From: Myxococcales bacterium
GTDB taxonomy: Bacteria > Myxococcota > Myxococcia > Myxococcales > Myxococcaceae
Direction of reading: 5' to 3'
Assembly: GCA_016191815.1 (NCBI GenBank)
Contig: JACPVI010000053.1
Span: 1-64,000, forward strand
DNA length: 64,000 nt
A program made the position numbers and the translations under genes. The stretch's first letter is position 1. Each line of letters opens with the position of its first letter. Below, in pieces: positions 6,301 to 56,318 of the stretch. The notes under the pieces were generated by a model. It worked only from the letters and a program-made list of their open reading frames with translations. It was not told where the DNA came from and made no database searches.

Positions 6301-8416
6301 CGCCGGCTCCCGGGAGGCCCTGGAGACCGAGGCCAAGCTCGCCCGCGACGTCCGCACCGCGATCGACTGCTTCGTCGCGGCCGGCAGACTGTCCGCCGAC
6401 CAGCTCGGAGATCCGGACCGCGCTGCCGCCAACTTCCGCAAGGCCCTCGAGAGGGATCCGCTCGACCCCACCGCCGGCGCCGGCCTCGAACAGATCCTGG
6501 CCGCCAGTGGCGACGCCGCTGACCTTGCCGCCCTCCACGAGCGGAAAGGAGAAGCGAAGCTGGCCCAGAAGGACACCGCGGCCGCCGCCGCCGAGTTCTA
6601 CTCTGCGGCCCGCACCTACCTCGACCGCCTGGGCGACCGGGAGCGCGCGCTCCTGGCGGCGGAGCGGGCGCTGGCGGCCCAGCCGACCCATCCGGAAGGC
6701 CTGGAGCTGAAAGGCGATCTGGCGATCGCCGGCGGTCACTACGCCGAGGCCGCCGCCGCCTTCGCGGTGCGCGTCCAGCAGGGCGGGGAAGCGAAGCGGC
6801 TCTCCGCCATCCACCTCAAGCTCGGCGCCATCTACCACGATCAGCTCTCGGACCTCACCCGGGCCGCGGCGCACCTCCAGACCGCGCTCTCGGGAGATCC
6901 GTCCAGCGCCGAGGCCCTGGAGCGCCTGGCCGCGATCCACACGGTCTCGCGCAACTGGACCGGCGCCGCCGACTGCCTCAAGAGGCTTCTGGAGATCGAG
7001 TCGCGGCCCGAAGCGGCCGCCCGGCACCACCTGGCGCTCGCCCGCATCCAGGACGAGGGCTTCGGCGATGCGGCCCAGGCAGCGGCGCTCTACCGGCGAG
7101 CGCTGGAGCTGGCGCCGGGAGACGGAGCGGTGATCGACCGGCTGGCGGAGATCTACCAGCGCACCGGGAACCTCTCCGAGTTGGTGCAGATCCTCGAGCA
7201 GCAGGCGCCGCGGGCGGGAGACGCCGGGAGAGCGGTTTCGCTCCGGCTCCGGGTCGGCGAGCTCTACGCCAAGTCGCTCGACCAGCCCCAGCGTGCGGTG
7301 ACGGCCTACCGGGCGGCGCTCGAGATGGACCCCGAGTGCGTACCCGCCCACGCGGCGCTGGCAGACCTCTACATGCGGGACGCGGCGGCGGCGCCGATGG
7401 CGATCGAGGAGCACCGGGCCCTCTTGCGGCTCGACCCCACCCGGGTGGAGAGCCTGCACGCCCTCTTCCGGCTGTGGGAGGGCCTCAAGCACTCCGACAA
7501 GGCGTTCTGCGCCGCCGGGATGCTCCACTACCTCAAGGCGGCCAACGAGGCGGAGACTGCTTTCTATTCGGAGGCGAAGAATCGGATTCCGCAGGACTGC
7601 CCCAACGGCCTCACTCCGATCGACATCGACAACCTGATGCACCCGGGCGCCCGGAACGTGCTGGTGGAGATCTTCCGGGCGATCGGCGACCAGCTCACCA
7701 AGCTCCATCCGCCGCAGTTCGAGGCGTTGGGCATCGACCGCAAGGCAGACCGGCTCAAGCCGGACCACGCCGTGCACAAGGCCGTCCGGGCGGTGGCGCA
7801 GGTCTTGGGCGTGGAGGACTTCGAGGTCTACCAGGCGCGGCGCGGCATGGTGTTCCTCGAGACGACGGAGCCCTTGGCGGTGTGCGTCGGACAGGACGTG
7901 GTGCGGAAGTTCAACGCCCGCGAGCAGAAGTTCCTCATCGGCCGGGCGGTGCTCGGGCTGCACCACAAGACCGCCATCGCGTCCAAGCTGGCCAACCGGG
8001 ACCTGATCGATCTGCTCGGAAACTCGGTGCGGATCTTCCACCCCGAGTTCGCGCTCCTGGGCCAGCGCAGCGACGAGACGAGCAAGCAGCTGAGGAAGGC
8101 CTATTCGCGGAAAGCGCTCAAGGCGCTGGAGGCTCCGGCCACCACCGCGGCGGCGGCGCACGCGCTGGACGTGCAGGGCACGGTGGAGGCCCTCTCGCTC
8201 TCCGCCAACCGGGCGGGGCTCTTGCTCTGCGGCGACGTGGCGGCCGGGCTGAACATGCTCTTGCGCGACGATCCGAACTTCTCCTCCATCCGCGGCGAGG
8301 GAGCAGACCTCGCCGCGGAGGCGCTCCGCCGGCGTCCCGACGTGCGCGAGCTGTTCGCCTTCGGACTCTCCGACGACTTCTTCCGGCTGCGCCAGAAGGT
8401 GGGCCTCGCTGCATAG
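3353..8416 (+). CDS. giant TPR protein with conserved C-terminal domain
   Basis: The protein has 1687 residues and no signal peptide, so it is probably cytoplasmic. Residues from about 60 to 1390 are an almost unbroken array of TPR-like helical pairs with a recurring LEDRL..LDRAI..Y..VL...P..LPAL..L.RLY pattern, which suggests a long superhelical scaffold for protein partners. The last 300 residues or so are not TPR: they contain LTPIDIDNLMHPGARNVLVE, GMVFLETTEPLAVCVGQD and FRLRQKVGLAA, and look like a separate folded domain. Proteins of this size and architecture are common in myxobacteria, but I know no function for this one. The start at 3353 (MSERSDVPTT) is chosen over an in-frame GTG at 3302. 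It faces the CinA-like gene with a 12-base gap. Confidence 0.85.
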   Translation: MSERSDVPTTATSPAQPGVPQSASIAQAMASHLTQPPAASSAAEEDARARIAILEREAKALGNDPAAAVLFHEIGLLWEDPLRNPRNAAVAYQNAYKLAPRFLSNIRAARRLFSDVGNWQMVVQLIDAELAATSEPRPKAGLLFEKAQILEHRLSREEDAATTLKQTLELRPQDLSLLVQLEQAYAEKADHAALVEVYRLLAGSLSDDALKAHYLASAGQLLEDRLNRPDAAASCYREAFGLDRRSPLLLAAMKGVAEREGAVDDLLSALAAEAELLGRDAGPVYLQIAKVYTKLGRAEDALAALLAARRESPQEPLVLSELAQIYESQGRHEELADVLLALVASITDESELAAINLRLAALFEENLKRDQDAIGRYQAILARIPGHSAALAGLGKLYYRSQDWAGLLATYDAELAALTDARQKAARMYKAAEVLEERLGRQEEAIARYNQCLQLQPGYLPAQKALSRLYEKQSRFAELVAMHEQDLLQTADREQIISTLHKMASLYEDRLSDLDRAIECMRRVLELVSDHLPTIRNLSRLFERAGKWKELIEIHETEAALAGDTKQVLSLHHHNAELLEEQLKDRAGAIAAYERLLSLSPSYLPALKALGRLYAQDARWHDLVRMYRAEAEISPSTEQAAALIHKVGELYEQKLGDENEAIASYQEVLTLCPSYFPAVRALARIYRSQGAWESLIEVLRAEAANRTDPVERANALYQSAGIWEDQLGRTDMAAQGCQEVLRLTPGHAAALRALERLATAQNDVKELIAVLDRQTQVGESGAKVTAYLKLSRIYLDRLNEPNRAAQGCEAALAREPSNLGALKTLERIRAGDRARRAELKSRLSEAVGDQKLRAALRLSASADHDATAIATPDAGAHTAQLSELRNAFAADPTDSALAFALERSLRLAHDFLGLVELYERRIAASAEPSEQLELTLRVADLCELKLGDLQRAAAAYQRSLEMDPTLLPALQGARRVCLRLGDYAGSREALETEAKLARDVRTAIDCFVAAGRLSADQLGDPDRAAANFRKALERDPLDPTAGAGLEQILAASGDAADLAALHERKGEAKLAQKDTAAAAAEFYSAARTYLDRLGDRERALLAAERALAAQPTHPEGLELKGDLAIAGGHYAEAAAAFAVRVQQGGEAKRLSAIHLKLGAIYHDQLSDLTRAAAHLQTALSGDPSSAEALERLAAIHTVSRNWTGAADCLKRLLEIESRPEAAARHHLALARIQDEGFGDAAQAAALYRRALELAPGDGAVIDRLAEIYQRTGNLSELVQILEQQAPRAGDAGRAVSLRLRVGELYAKSLDQPQRAVTAYRAALEMDPECVPAHAALADLYMRDAAAAPMAIEEHRALLRLDPTRVESLHALFRLWEGLKHSDKAFCAAGMLHYLKAANEAETAFYSEAKNRIPQDCPNGLTPIDIDNLMHPGARNVLVEIFRAIGDQLTKLHPPQFEALGIDRKADRLKPDHAVHKAVRAVAQVLGVEDFEVYQARRGMVFLETTEPLAVCVGQDVVRKFNAREQKFLIGRAVLGLHHKTAIASKLANRDLIDLLGNSVRIFHPEFALLGQRSDETSKQLRKAYSRKALKALEAPATTAAAAHALDVQGTVEALSLSANRAGLLLCGDVAAGLNMLLRDDPNFSSIRGEGADLAAEALRRRPDVRELFAFGLSDDFFRLRQKVGLAA

Positions 8417-8428
8417 GGAGACCGCCCG

Positions 8429-9178
8429 CTACTCCACCTTGAGGATAGAGCCCTCCGGCAACTCGCGGCGGAGGCGCGCCACCGCGTCCTCCACCCGCTC
8501 GGGTGAGGAGTGCTCCACGGTGAGCTTCACCCGGAAGCCGGCGCCTCTGTGCACCGCGGGGTACGAGCCGATCGCCACCTCGGGCATGGAGAGCGCCACC
8601 CGGTCCAGCGCCGCGGCGATCTCCGCCTCGCCCTCGGAGAGGTAGACGCAGCGGCACACTGCCGGCACCCCTTCCATCCGCGAAAGGACGACCTCGAGCT
8701 GCGCCTGGAAGAGAAATGGCACGCCGGGCAGCATGAAGACGTCGTCACAGCAGAGCACCGGGTACCAGATGCCCTCTCGTACCAAAAGCTCGGTGCCTTC
8801 CGGCGCGTCGGCGAGCCGCATCGCCGCCGCGATCGCCGCCTCTCCGTAGTGCGCCCGGATCATCTCCTCCATCTTTGGGAGCCGCACCACCGGCCGGCCG
8901 AGCGCCAGGGCTACCGCGCGCACCGTGACGTCGTCGTGGGTCGGCCCGATGCCGCCGCTGGTGATCACATAGCGGGCACGCCGCCTGGCCAGCGCGACCG
9001 CCTCCACGATCGCGTCGACCTCGTCCGGCACCACCGAAAGCGAGCGCAGCGGAACACCGCGCTCCCTGAGCCGGCGCACGAGCAGCGCACCGTTCTCGTC
9101 GACCACCTTGGCGGACAGCACCTCGTTGCCGACCACCACCGCGGCCGCCCCCGAGCGCGCGCATTTCGCTGAGCCCAC
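8429..9178 (-). CDS. CinA-like molybdopterin-binding domain protein
   Basis: The 249-residue protein carries a MoaB/Mog-type fold: VVGNEVLSAKVVDENGALL at the N-terminus, YVITSGGIGPTHDDVT with the typical SGG.GPT.DD motif, and MLPGVPFLF. This matches the N-terminal domain of CinA and FAD-synthase-like proteins. The C-terminal nicotinamide-nucleotide amidohydrolase domain of full CinA is absent; instead a ferredoxin-like tail follows (GSYPAVHRGAGFRVKLTVE). The start is a GTG at 9178, 7 bases behind tmk, so it is the last gene of the greA/recG-to-tmk run. The substrate is not known for this short form. Confidence 0.85.
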   Translation of the reverse strand: MGSAKCARSGAAAVVVGNEVLSAKVVDENGALLVRRLRERGVPLRSLSVVPDEVDAIVEAVALARRRARYVITSGGIGPTHDDVTVRAVALALGRPVVRLPKMEEMIRAHYGEAAIAAAMRLADAPEGTELLVREGIWYPVLCCDDVFMLPGVPFLFQAQLEVVLSRMEGVPAVCRCVYLSEGEAEIAAALDRVALSMPEVAIGSYPAVHRGAGFRVKLTVEHSSPERVEDAVARLRRELPEGSILKVE

Positions 9179-53932: not shown

Positions 53933-55000
53933 TCAACCGAGCACTCGTTCCGCCAGCCAATACCCGCCTGCACCCAGGATGGCCAAGCTCGCCACTCGCA
54001 CCGCCCACACTGCGGCCTGGCGCCGCCGGTCCAACAGCCGGAGCAACGGGTAGAACGCCAACACCAGCGCCGCCTGCCCCAACTCCACCCCGAGGTTGAA
54101 CCCGAATAGCCCCGCCACCGCGTCATCCCCGAGGCCGTAGCCCTTCAGCACCGAGGCGAAGCCGAACCCGTGCACCAACCCGAAGGCGAAGGTGATCAGC
54201 GCCCGGTGCCGGTGCTGCTTCAACACCAGATTCTCCACCGCCACCCAGACGATACTGGCCGCGATCGCTGCCTCCACCCAACGCGCCGAGGCCGGCGAGA
54301 GCCGGATCGCCTCCAGCGCAGTCGCCCCGAGAGTGATGGAGTGCGCCACCGTGAACGCCGTCACCATCACCAGCACCCGCCTCCAGCCCCCCGCCACCAA
54401 GAGCAACGCGATGAGGAAACAGACGTGATCCACCCCGGTGAAGATGTGGAATACCCCGAGCTCGATCCATGACCAAAGACCGCTCACCCGGCGCGCTCTG
54501 CCTTTGGCGGGAATGATCAGCGTCTGCTGGTGCCCCTGAGCGAAGAGCTGCCCCCGCTCTCCCTCGACCACGCTCCCCAGCACCACCCTGTACGCCGCCG
54601 GGAGCACCGACAGCACCCGGAAAGTCTGTTTCAGCTCGCCTGGTCCACAGTGGTAGCGCGCGCGCAGCTCCACGTAGGTCTCCCGAAGCAGCGCCTCGCT
54701 CCCAGTCCGGTGGCATGGGGACTCGGCGGCGGTGAGCGGCATCCACTCCCACACCCCCGCCTCGATCGCCTCGCGGCCCGCCTCCAGCTCCGCCTCGGAG
54801 ATCTCCCCATCCCGGTCGGCGTCCACCGGCGCCAGCGACTGCAAGGTCGCGGCGGTGAGCGTGCACACTTCCGCAACCTCCTCGGCCCCTTCGGCGCGGC
54901 CAAGCTGGGCGTAGATGATGTCCGCGTCGTGAGCGGCCGCCGCGCTCGCAAACAACGCGCCGGCCGCGGCCACAAGGCGCAGCCAGACGGCCCCGGTCAC
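53933..55000 (-). CDS. HupE/UreJ-like membrane protein with an N-terminal EF-hand domain
   Basis: The 355-residue protein has a signal peptide (RLVAAAGALFASAAAA) and a periplasmic domain of about 190 residues with an EF-hand-like loop (DADRDGEISEAELEAG). A C-terminal HupE/UreJ-type membrane domain of about seven helices carries HIFTGVDHVCFLIALLLV, FTVAHSITLG and GLVHGFGFASVLKG. The conserved histidines and Asp are those linked to nickel or cobalt transport in this family. Metal uptake is therefore a possible role, but many related proteins are unassigned. The start is GTG at 55000. A strong inverted repeat lies 79 bases upstream. Confidence 0.8.
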   Translation of the reverse strand: MTGAVWLRLVAAAGALFASAAAAHDADIIYAQLGRAEGAEEVAEVCTLTAATLQSLAPVDADRDGEISEAELEAGREAIEAGVWEWMPLTAAESPCHRTGSEALLRETYVELRARYHCGPGELKQTFRVLSVLPAAYRVVLGSVVEGERGQLFAQGHQQTLIIPAKGRARRVSGLWSWIELGVFHIFTGVDHVCFLIALLLVAGGWRRVLVMVTAFTVAHSITLGATALEAIRLSPASARWVEAAIAASIVWVAVENLVLKQHRHRALITFAFGLVHGFGFASVLKGYGLGDDAVAGLFGFNLGVELGQAALVLAFYPLLRLLDRRRQAAVWAVRVASLAILGAGGYWLAERVLG

Positions 55001-55393
55001 CTCGACGGCGCCGCTGCCCTGATGCCCGCGCCCATGCCAGTCCCCTCCCCGCAGCCCTACCCCCGAGCCGGCGCTCGCTTTTTTCCATCGTGAATGTGAA
55101 TTCATGTTCACGAAAAACCGCACCCGCAGTGCGACCTGACCGCCGGTTTTCTCCAGTCCTTGCGCTGGGTTGCCGCGAGACTCGGTGGCCGAAAGTGGCT
55201 GGGGAAAATGAACGTGAATTCACATTCACGTTGGAAAAAAGGCAAGGGAGCGCGGGCGCGGGGCACGGACGAGCGGATGGCAGCGGCCGGAGGGTCGGGA
55301 GTTGGCCGCCGCATCTGATCAGATCTCCGCATCGAGGCGCCAGTGGTGACGGCCACGTCGTCCCGCGCGCGGTTTCGATGCCTTCATCGCTTC
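55001..55393. other. 393-base gene-free region upstream of the HupE-like gene
   Basis: It holds the 32-bp inverted repeat at 55079-55240 and a perfect palindrome ATCTGATCAGAT at 55313-55324. It is locally rich in A and T runs compared with its surroundings. Frames across it look like shadows. It probably contains the promoter of the HupE-like gene on the minus strand. Confidence 0.5.
55079..55240. promoter_or_regulatory. 32-bp inverted repeat, probable paired operators
   Basis: Arm 1 (55079-55110) and the reverse complement of arm 2 (55209-55240) differ at 2 of 32 positions and are 98 bases apart. Each arm has a T6 or A6 run at its outer end and a core with TGAATTCA and TTCACG. Each core is itself a dyad, for example AACGTGAA...TTCACGTT in arm 2. 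This looks like two binding sites for a dimeric repressor (TetR-like in size) in the promoter region of the HupE-like gene, or the ends of a small hairpin element. Confidence 0.65.
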
Positions 55394-55942
55394 TCAACAG
55401 CTGCCCGGGTCGCTGGCGCCAGGGAGAGCGGAGGTTCGGTCGAGCAGCCCTCCCTGCCGGGCCCCACAGCGCGGGCAATGCACGAGCTGCTGCCAGCCCT
55501 CGATGGCCTTGGCCTCCTCGCCGCAGCAGATGAGCGGGACGGGAGCGAGGTCGTCCGGCTCGGGAGGCAACGCCGAGGGCGGCGGCCTCGGAGGGACCGC
55601 CACGAACGTCACCCGCGGGTTCATCGACAGGGTACGGAATACGTGCATCAGCTGCCGGTACCGGACTTCGGACCGGAGCGCAGCCGCGTGCTCCTCCACG
55701 AAGCGCCGCTGAGCCTCGGTGAGCCACTGCTCCGGAGGCGCCACTTTCCCGCAGTAGAGGCAGGCGCGAAGCGCCGAGCCCTCCAGCTCGTGCGAGTTCT
55801 CGTGCCGCGTCCCGCCCGCGACCGCGCGGTGCACCGCCAGGCCGTCGGTCGGAAAGGGCCGCGTCTTGAACTCCCTTTGACAGTGCGGGCAACGGCGGCG
55901 GACGAAGCCACTCGAGTCCTGCGGAAGAGCGAGGGTCCGCAC
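55394..55942 (-). CDS. zinc-ribbon protein of unknown function
   Basis: The 182-residue product has four cysteine pairs: RRRCPHCQREFKTRPFPTD, RACLYCGKVAPPEQWLTEAQ, LICCGEEAKAIEGWQQL and HCPRCGARQGGL, consistent with two or more zinc sites. A helical middle part (FVEEHAAALRSEVRYRQLMH) follows the second pair. The start is GTG at 55942 with GAGG six bases upstream, 2 bases behind the small membrane-protein gene. No enzyme domain is visible. Confidence 0.75.
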   Translation of the reverse strand: MRTLALPQDSSGFVRRRCPHCQREFKTRPFPTDGLAVHRAVAGGTRHENSHELEGSALRACLYCGKVAPPEQWLTEAQRRFVEEHAAALRSEVRYRQLMHVFRTLSMNPRVTFVAVPPRPPPSALPPEPDDLAPVPLICCGEEAKAIEGWQQLVHCPRCGARQGGLLDRTSALPGASDPGSC

Positions 55943-55944
55943 GA

Positions 55945-56109
55945 TCAACCTCGAGATCGCCGCCACCGCCCCGCCGCACCCAGCACCGCGGCGAGCAAGC
56001 TCACCATCGCCAGCGCGAGGAAGAGGTGTACCCACGGCCCCATCGGGGCGCGGCTCAGCACCCCCAGCGCCCATAGCACCGAGAGGATGATCGAGATGGT
56101 CCAGAACAT
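55945..56109 (-). CDS. 54-residue membrane protein, lmo0937/DUF5670-like
   Basis: The product has two hydrophobic helices: MFWTISIILSVLWALGVLS and VHLFLALAMVSLLAAVLGA, separated by RAPMGPW and followed by a basic tail (GRWRRSRG). Size, the two-helix plan and the (L/F)WTI..IL..LW.LG..S...(M)G...H pattern match the lmo0937 family of small membrane proteins. GGAGG lies about 8 bases before the ATG. Its function is unknown. It is too short to be found by common gene-length cut-offs. Confidence 0.8.
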   Translation of the reverse strand: MFWTISIILSVLWALGVLSRAPMGPWVHLFLALAMVSLLAAVLGAAGRWRRSRG

Positions 56110-56318
56110 CGCGCCGCCTCCCGGGCCAAGCTATGGACGCGCCCGCGCGGCAACAACCACTCCCGCCACCTCGCCGGCCTGAAACTCCTGCAGGTCGTGG
56201 CTGGAAAAACTTTCCTCCTCGAGCCGACTGCTCGCGGGAACGGCTCGCCATCCCAGGCCGGGGTCTGGCCTGCGCCGTGCTTCGCTGCTCGGGTCACCGC
56301 GTGAGCAGGAGCCGACGG

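Follow-up and report, generated by a model that had tools for sequence, protein, structure and literature searches.

The inverted repeat upstream of a HupE-like gene in the window, a 64,000-nt stretch of a Myxococcales draft genome, is probably one copy of a dispersed cassette of two operators, derived from the control region of an autoregulated orphan TetR-family gene. We read it as a known kind of site, a TetR-type operator, in an unusual, mobile-looking package. The operator identity of its palindromes is fairly well supported by context: the same palindrome stands before a TetR-family gene both elsewhere in this genome (contig C30) and in a Desulfovibrio MAG, which makes the two repressor operators proposed in the initial annotation the best-supported part of that reading, its interpretation as a whole being partly supported. 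The palindrome as such is in both cases found in a tetR promoter region, and the window copy has no adjoining tetR. The genome is a draft of 6.77 Mb in 89 contigs, 98.8% complete, and the window lies on contig C45.

A repeat search of the window returned two 33-nt arms (55078-55110 and 55209-55241), 94% complementary and separated by 98 nt, in agreement with the 32-bp inverted repeat with arms 98 bases apart that had been described initially; the same search also reported the arm pair as a direct repeat with a spacing of 118. For 32-nt arms within 300 bp and up to four mismatches, it is the single repeat in the window (seven registers, the best with two mismatches), and four of four dinucleotide shuffles of the window gave no match of this arm length and separation at up to six mismatches. 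This confirms the inverted repeat, at a level far exceeding chance. The T6 and A6 runs, the TGAATTCA core and the CGTGAA/TTCACG dyads attributed to it are all found in the window sequence as well; what the initial annotation missed is a near-perfect 24-bp palindrome inside each arm (Table 1; consensus CGTGAACGTGAATTCACGTTCACG). The arms register as both inverted and direct repeat because each is itself palindromic, and since a palindrome present twice necessarily forms both kinds, the palindrome is the meaningful unit. Arm A and arm B lie 118 bp apart in the window, centre to centre, and the outer T6 run, together with an A6 run at 55235-55240, carries the inverted repeat outward past the palindromes; comparable outer runs flank the palindrome before the tetR gene at C30. 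In its standard orientation, with arm B first, the element reads along the minus strand of the window, toward HupE. Beyond arm B lies a non-coding repeat of about 78 bp (Table 1) that recurs at C86:41779-41855 and C44:784-867, beside two palindrome pairs and, at C44, without palindromes; it may be a separate dispersed repeat.

Table 1. Coordinates of the paired-palindrome element, its surroundings in the window and the related tetR gene (window positions unless a contig is named)
Feature	Position	Strand	Basis
Whole paired-palindrome element	55076..55244	-	Profile R1 positions 3-171, E=1.6e-38, with the window copy among the six pairs from which R1 was built
Arm A, putative TetR-type operator nearer HupE, 24-bp palindrome CGTGAATGTGAATTCATGTTCACG	55089..55112	.	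2 mismatches to consensus
Arm B, second putative operator, 24-bp palindrome AATGAACGTGAATTCACATTCACG	55207..55230	.	3 mismatches to consensus
Spacer, 94 bp, homologous to five other spacers	55113..55206	.	Alignment A1 of six copies
Outer T6 run of arm A	55079..55084	.	Sequence
Flank repeat, arm-B side	55242..55318	.	88% to C86 copy; 83% to C44:784-867
HupE/UreJ-family membrane protein gene, probable target	53933..55000	-	Pfam HupE_UreJ_2 E=1.9e-41 (match to the longer ORF 53933-55123); sequence-inferred GTG start at 55000
ORF upstream of HupE	55394..56251	-	Beside HupE in relatives, gap much shorter
Orphan TetR-family gene (protein P0001)	C30:3216-3962		TetR_N E=1.1e-6

A search of the genome with a 201-bp stretch returned the window copy, one full-length copy at 89% and four at 69-73%. 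Every one of the 27 strand-wise matches to the 17-base core (up to two mismatches) falls at one of eight loci, six of them paired, and the 24-base consensus (up to three mismatches) occurs at 14 sites in the genome. Pairs are present at C45 (the window), C86, C75:4530 (C75a), C72, C7 and C48, with a spacing of 118 bp in five and of 117 bp in one (C7), and single palindromes at C30:3169-3192 and C75:123846-123869 (C75b). Within the genome, profile R1 added no locus to these eight at E<=0.001, and three places scored more weakly (E 0.1-7). Arm identity among the six aligned pairs is 88-100%, and the 94-bp spacers are 46-62% identical pairwise (84% for C45/C86) with almost no change in length. 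Arms this similar around spacers that diverged at a near-constant length mark the copies as old homologues, in which palindromes and spacing were preserved while the spacer drifted. Comparison of the 150-bp flanks of all eight loci (120 pairs) disclosed clear homology between C45 and C86 on the arm-B side, where the two copies have 78 bp of flank in common, and between C7 and C30 on the arm-A side; 0 of 200 shuffles scored as high for each of these, and 2 of 200 for the next pair. The initial annotation had posed a choice between a unique site, to be taken as an operator, and a repeated one, to be taken as mobile. That either/or does not hold: a sequence present at eight loci, six of them paired, with its window copy inside a lineage-specific insertion, looks like both.

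At C30 the palindrome grows to a perfect 46 bp, failing at 48 bp, and ends 12 bp ahead of the start codon of an intact TetR-family gene, whose product P0001 scores weakly against TetR_N (28.8 bits; cut-off 24). A protein search identified one other copy of this gene in the genome, a fragment at C7 (65% at the amino-acid level over 93 residues; TetR_N 20.4 bits, below the cut-off of 24) whose start lies 417 bp from the pair at this locus. Homology between C7 and C30 extends to both flanks, at 83% over 293 bp and 68% over 156 bp, and the palindromic stretches of C7 equal those of C30 at 30/30 and 28/28 nt, identities biased somewhat upward in that BLAST picks exact stretches, next to 83% over 293 bp for the adjoining tetR copy. 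The C7 flank away from tetR carries an alpha/beta-hydrolase-like gene, represented by its 3' end and broken across two frames; its downstream piece matches Abhydrolase_1 (E=2.8e-9) and its upstream piece gives no Pfam match. The C7 pair is thereby flanked by the tetR fragment (L054:7104-7382, minus strand) and the split hydrolase-like gene (L054 ~8010-8576, minus strand); both genes look broken, and the palindromes between them are intact. A search of 146 other genomes of the class for P0001 returned no homologue at E<=1e-12, so footprinting across species is not possible, and plasmids and viral contigs gave no match to the C30 TetR. A PDB sequence search with P0001 yielded TetR-family chains at E 3e-5 and weaker, the two lower E-values belonging to designed helical proteins, and a single-sequence fold of the protein (pLDDT 54) was too poor for use.

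Among 195 genomes of the phylum, this is the one genome with sites for the 22-base pattern at up to two mismatches (14 sites), and the 24-mer at up to three mismatches occurs in 1 of 40 genomes, its own included. Across 84,980 species genomes, the one match to the 22-bp pattern is in a Desulfovibrio sp. MAG, where it stands directly before a TetR-family gene (PF00440, TetR_N E=7.5e-10) different from the tetR at C30. The Desulfovibrio palindrome has the same C/T-variable position as the sites analyzed here, and the recognition helix of its TetR is, by eye, unlike that of P0001. Plasmids, phages and viral contigs held no match to the element. One profile hit among the 195 genomes, in another family of the order (G046:C184:10426-10548, equivalent to L070:1501-1623; E=1.1e-5), is without a second palindrome and was rejected as probably due to chance. 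TetR genes make up about 1% of genes. A rough chance estimate resting on this share gives ~0.1 for a tetR behind one of the eight loci and ~0.01-0.02 for the Desulfovibrio match; the joint value of ~1e-3 for tetR adjacency is good, not conclusive, evidence. Judged by the titles of the papers listed, a literature search for GTGAATTCAC with TetR found no report of the palindrome as a TetR operator, work on SbtR sites (PMC4948773) possibly excepted, and, judged by listings, searches on Myxococcus MITEs, TetR with MITEs, looping between paired TetR operators and mobile regulatory repeats produced nothing to the point.

Comparison with relatives outlines how the window copy is placed. HupE matches occur in 52 of the 57 other genomes of the family that were searched. 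At 7 of 11 relatives' HupE loci (L088, L089, L090, L092, L095, L096 and L097) the upstream gene is the same and the window genome is 368-372 bp longer between the anchors; among the others, the difference is +348 bp for L094, these anchors give no synteny for L093 (-184), and one anchor is missing from L087 and L091. The palindrome is absent at up to two mismatches from the genomes of all 11 relatives, a subset of the 195-genome scan. The same neighbours are kept and ~370 bp are absent in relatives; the element therefore sits in a lineage-specific insertion of ~370 bp between two co-directional genes. The upstream ORF has no Pfam or NCBIfam match. HupE would now need a promoter of its own, and the element, with the outer end of arm A ~78 bp ahead of the inferred GTG start, probably supplies and regulates it; promoter motifs were sought by eye, and a consensus promoter was not established. 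Just ahead of the gene, the stop of a 12-codon ORF (window 54997-55035, minus strand) overlaps the inferred HupE start (GTGA), and this ORF is a possible leader for translational coupling of HupE.

The other copies have varied neighbours, among which, for the eight loci, no coherent regulon is visible. The C72 pair lies ahead of a ZIP-family transporter, the C48 pair between divergent holB and SDR genes and the C86 pair ~500 bp ahead of a secreted-protein ORF, while the C75a pair is located ~34 bp past the end of an ORF that by eye reads like a cold-shock protein and is followed by a small ORF without Pfam match. The C75b solo occupies the interval between the 3' ends of a trypsin/PDZ protease gene and a Uma2 gene. 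The C48 locus, tried as an empty-site test via holB, was uninformative, with the upstream SDR gene in 0 of 13 relatives' loci.

Taken together, we infer a model that spans TetR binding, promoter activity, means of dispersal, order of derivation, recombination at C30 and regulation of HupE. The 24-bp palindrome of each arm would be read by one repressor dimer, with GTGAAYGTGAA as half-site. Judging from C7 and C30, the ancestral order would have been hydrolase 3' end, arm A, spacer, arm B and tetR. Copies of the cassette, mobile or duplicated, would then have dispersed to six intergenic loci, with two loci keeping one palindrome, and at C30 the spacer would have been lost, joining the outer halves of both arms as the perfect palindrome of 46 bp. 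The window copy lies within the ~370-bp insertion, which parts HupE from the preceding gene. Two repressor dimers would bind the cassette and control outward-reading promoters, here probably that of HupE, which TetR on one or both operators would shut and the repressor's ligand would open. Looping between the arms is possible, 118 bp corresponding to ~11.2 turns at 10.5 bp per turn.

Three observations sit uneasily with this model. The solo at C75:123846 counts against the operator reading, no promoter being expected between two gene 3' ends. At C7 the neighbours are broken yet the palindromes are intact, and local regulation therefore leaves their preservation unexplained. In the six-pair alignment, co-variation is stronger between the outer half of one arm and that of the other than between the two halves of a single arm, which speaks against the simplest picture of one dimer per arm and for some joint use of both arms. 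Because local repression does not explain palindromes kept beside broken genes (C7) and between convergent genes (C75b), a chromosome-level role or self-spreading may play a part. A TetR-family protein might use the 118-bp pairs as a unit, as a fixed-size loop, for organising the chromosome or for spreading its own cassette beyond local repression, the pairs being kept despite the decay of their neighbours; we rate this wider role as rather improbable. A different proposal, that a TetR-type protein marks or organises DNA through scattered palindromes in the manner of SlmA or Noc, and does not act on each neighbour, gains from the palindromes that persist where neighbours are broken (C7) or a promoter is unexpected (C75b) and from an orphan TetR with scattered sites. 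We find it very unlikely, however: there are just eight loci in 6.8 Mb, placed on 89 draft contigs and not on a chromosome, and a comparison of P0001 with the SlmA model gave no match at E<=0.01.

A selfish mobile element resembling a MITE or a REPIN, with a transposase that reads the palindromic ends and a TetR adjacency that hitch-hikes from one ancestral insertion beside a tetR gene, would account for the conserved inverted ends, the diverged spacer of constant length and the solo relics, much as in REPINs (PMC8049555). It would also fit the lineage-specific insertion at the window locus, the 78 bp of flank common to C45 and C86, and the placement of C75b and C7, which is not tied to an intact promoter. 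Yet the Y1/RAYT transposase (PF01797) is found in 0 of 1 genome here, with 5 of 14 control genomes positive, and a REPIN is unlikely because this genome has no Y1 transposase. No transposase was seen among the neighbour genes scanned, and matches to the ends and to the profile (E<=0.001) are confined to the eight loci of the 98.8% complete draft, with no further copy in which these ends surround a larger, autonomous element. With just six pairs, no target-site duplication recognised by eye (the relatives being too diverged to define the exact insertion point) and the Desulfovibrio tetR site left unexplained, a purely selfish origin appears doubtful to us. The arms might instead form the ~30-bp basal stem of a structured RNA that encloses one or more spacer hairpins and is transcribed from the arm-B side. 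Folding energies for the window copy are -84 kcal/mol (plus strand, z -7.35) and -75.4 kcal/mol (minus strand, z -5.98); in the six-copy alignment the arms pair in 98.3% of cells, inter-arm pairs at columns 13/163 and 23/153 are changed on both sides, with C75a holding a G-U intermediate, and the spacer hairpin pairs in 78.8% of cells (19 of 500 shuffles as high). We nevertheless consider an RNA most unlikely, as the helix-1 spacer pairs are unpaired in one or two of six copies, the RNAalifold covariation term is -0.02 (six copies), and Rfam on 601 bases gave none near E<1 (best snoZ206, E=2.3, a chance-level snoRNA). There are, moreover, six copies in all, two of them near-duplicates, concerted change of DNA ends yields the same pattern, and the solo palindrome before tetR is without a spacer.

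If the double-operator reading is true, this locus lets one see a repressor operator spread across a genome in the form of a ready-made cassette of two sites, one that inserts between genes that are conserved neighbours in relatives, and regulon growth by moving operators, not by point mutation, becomes testable. The strict 118-bp spacing, combined with diverged spacers, constitutes a natural series for short-range looping by TetR-type proteins.

Several known systems share features with the element. SlmA sites are likewise scattered palindromic sites of a TetR-fold protein, and the core GTGAATTCAC resembles the SlmA-site sequence GTGAGTACTCAC; in contrast, the candidate P0001 is not SlmA, and the sites here are few and mostly paired. 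As with MITEs, the element is short and non-coding, has terminal inverted repeats and forms an insertion absent from relatives, its presence or absence at a syntenic site being seen at the window locus (7 of 11 relatives, 368-372 bp), but each terminal repeat is here a palindrome and no target duplication was recognised by eye. REPINs are extragenic and consist of two inverted palindromic units with a diverse spacer, leaving singlet remnants (PMC8049555); the present element likewise combines a diverged spacer with two inverted palindromic units and occurs extragenically, with solo remnants. Unlike REPINs, it resides in a genome without a RAYT/Y1 transposase, its palindromes also precede tetR genes, and it numbers 6 copies against 69-235 in E. 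coli (PMC8049555), its 6 pairs and 2 solos falling short of a large REPIN-type population. With TetR-family autoregulatory operators it shares a near-perfect palindrome directly before tetR, at C30 and in the Desulfovibrio MAG, and it departs from them in that the palindrome is here doubled at 118 bp (once 117) around a homologous spacer, dispersed to loci without tetR and, at C30, extended to a perfect 46 bp.
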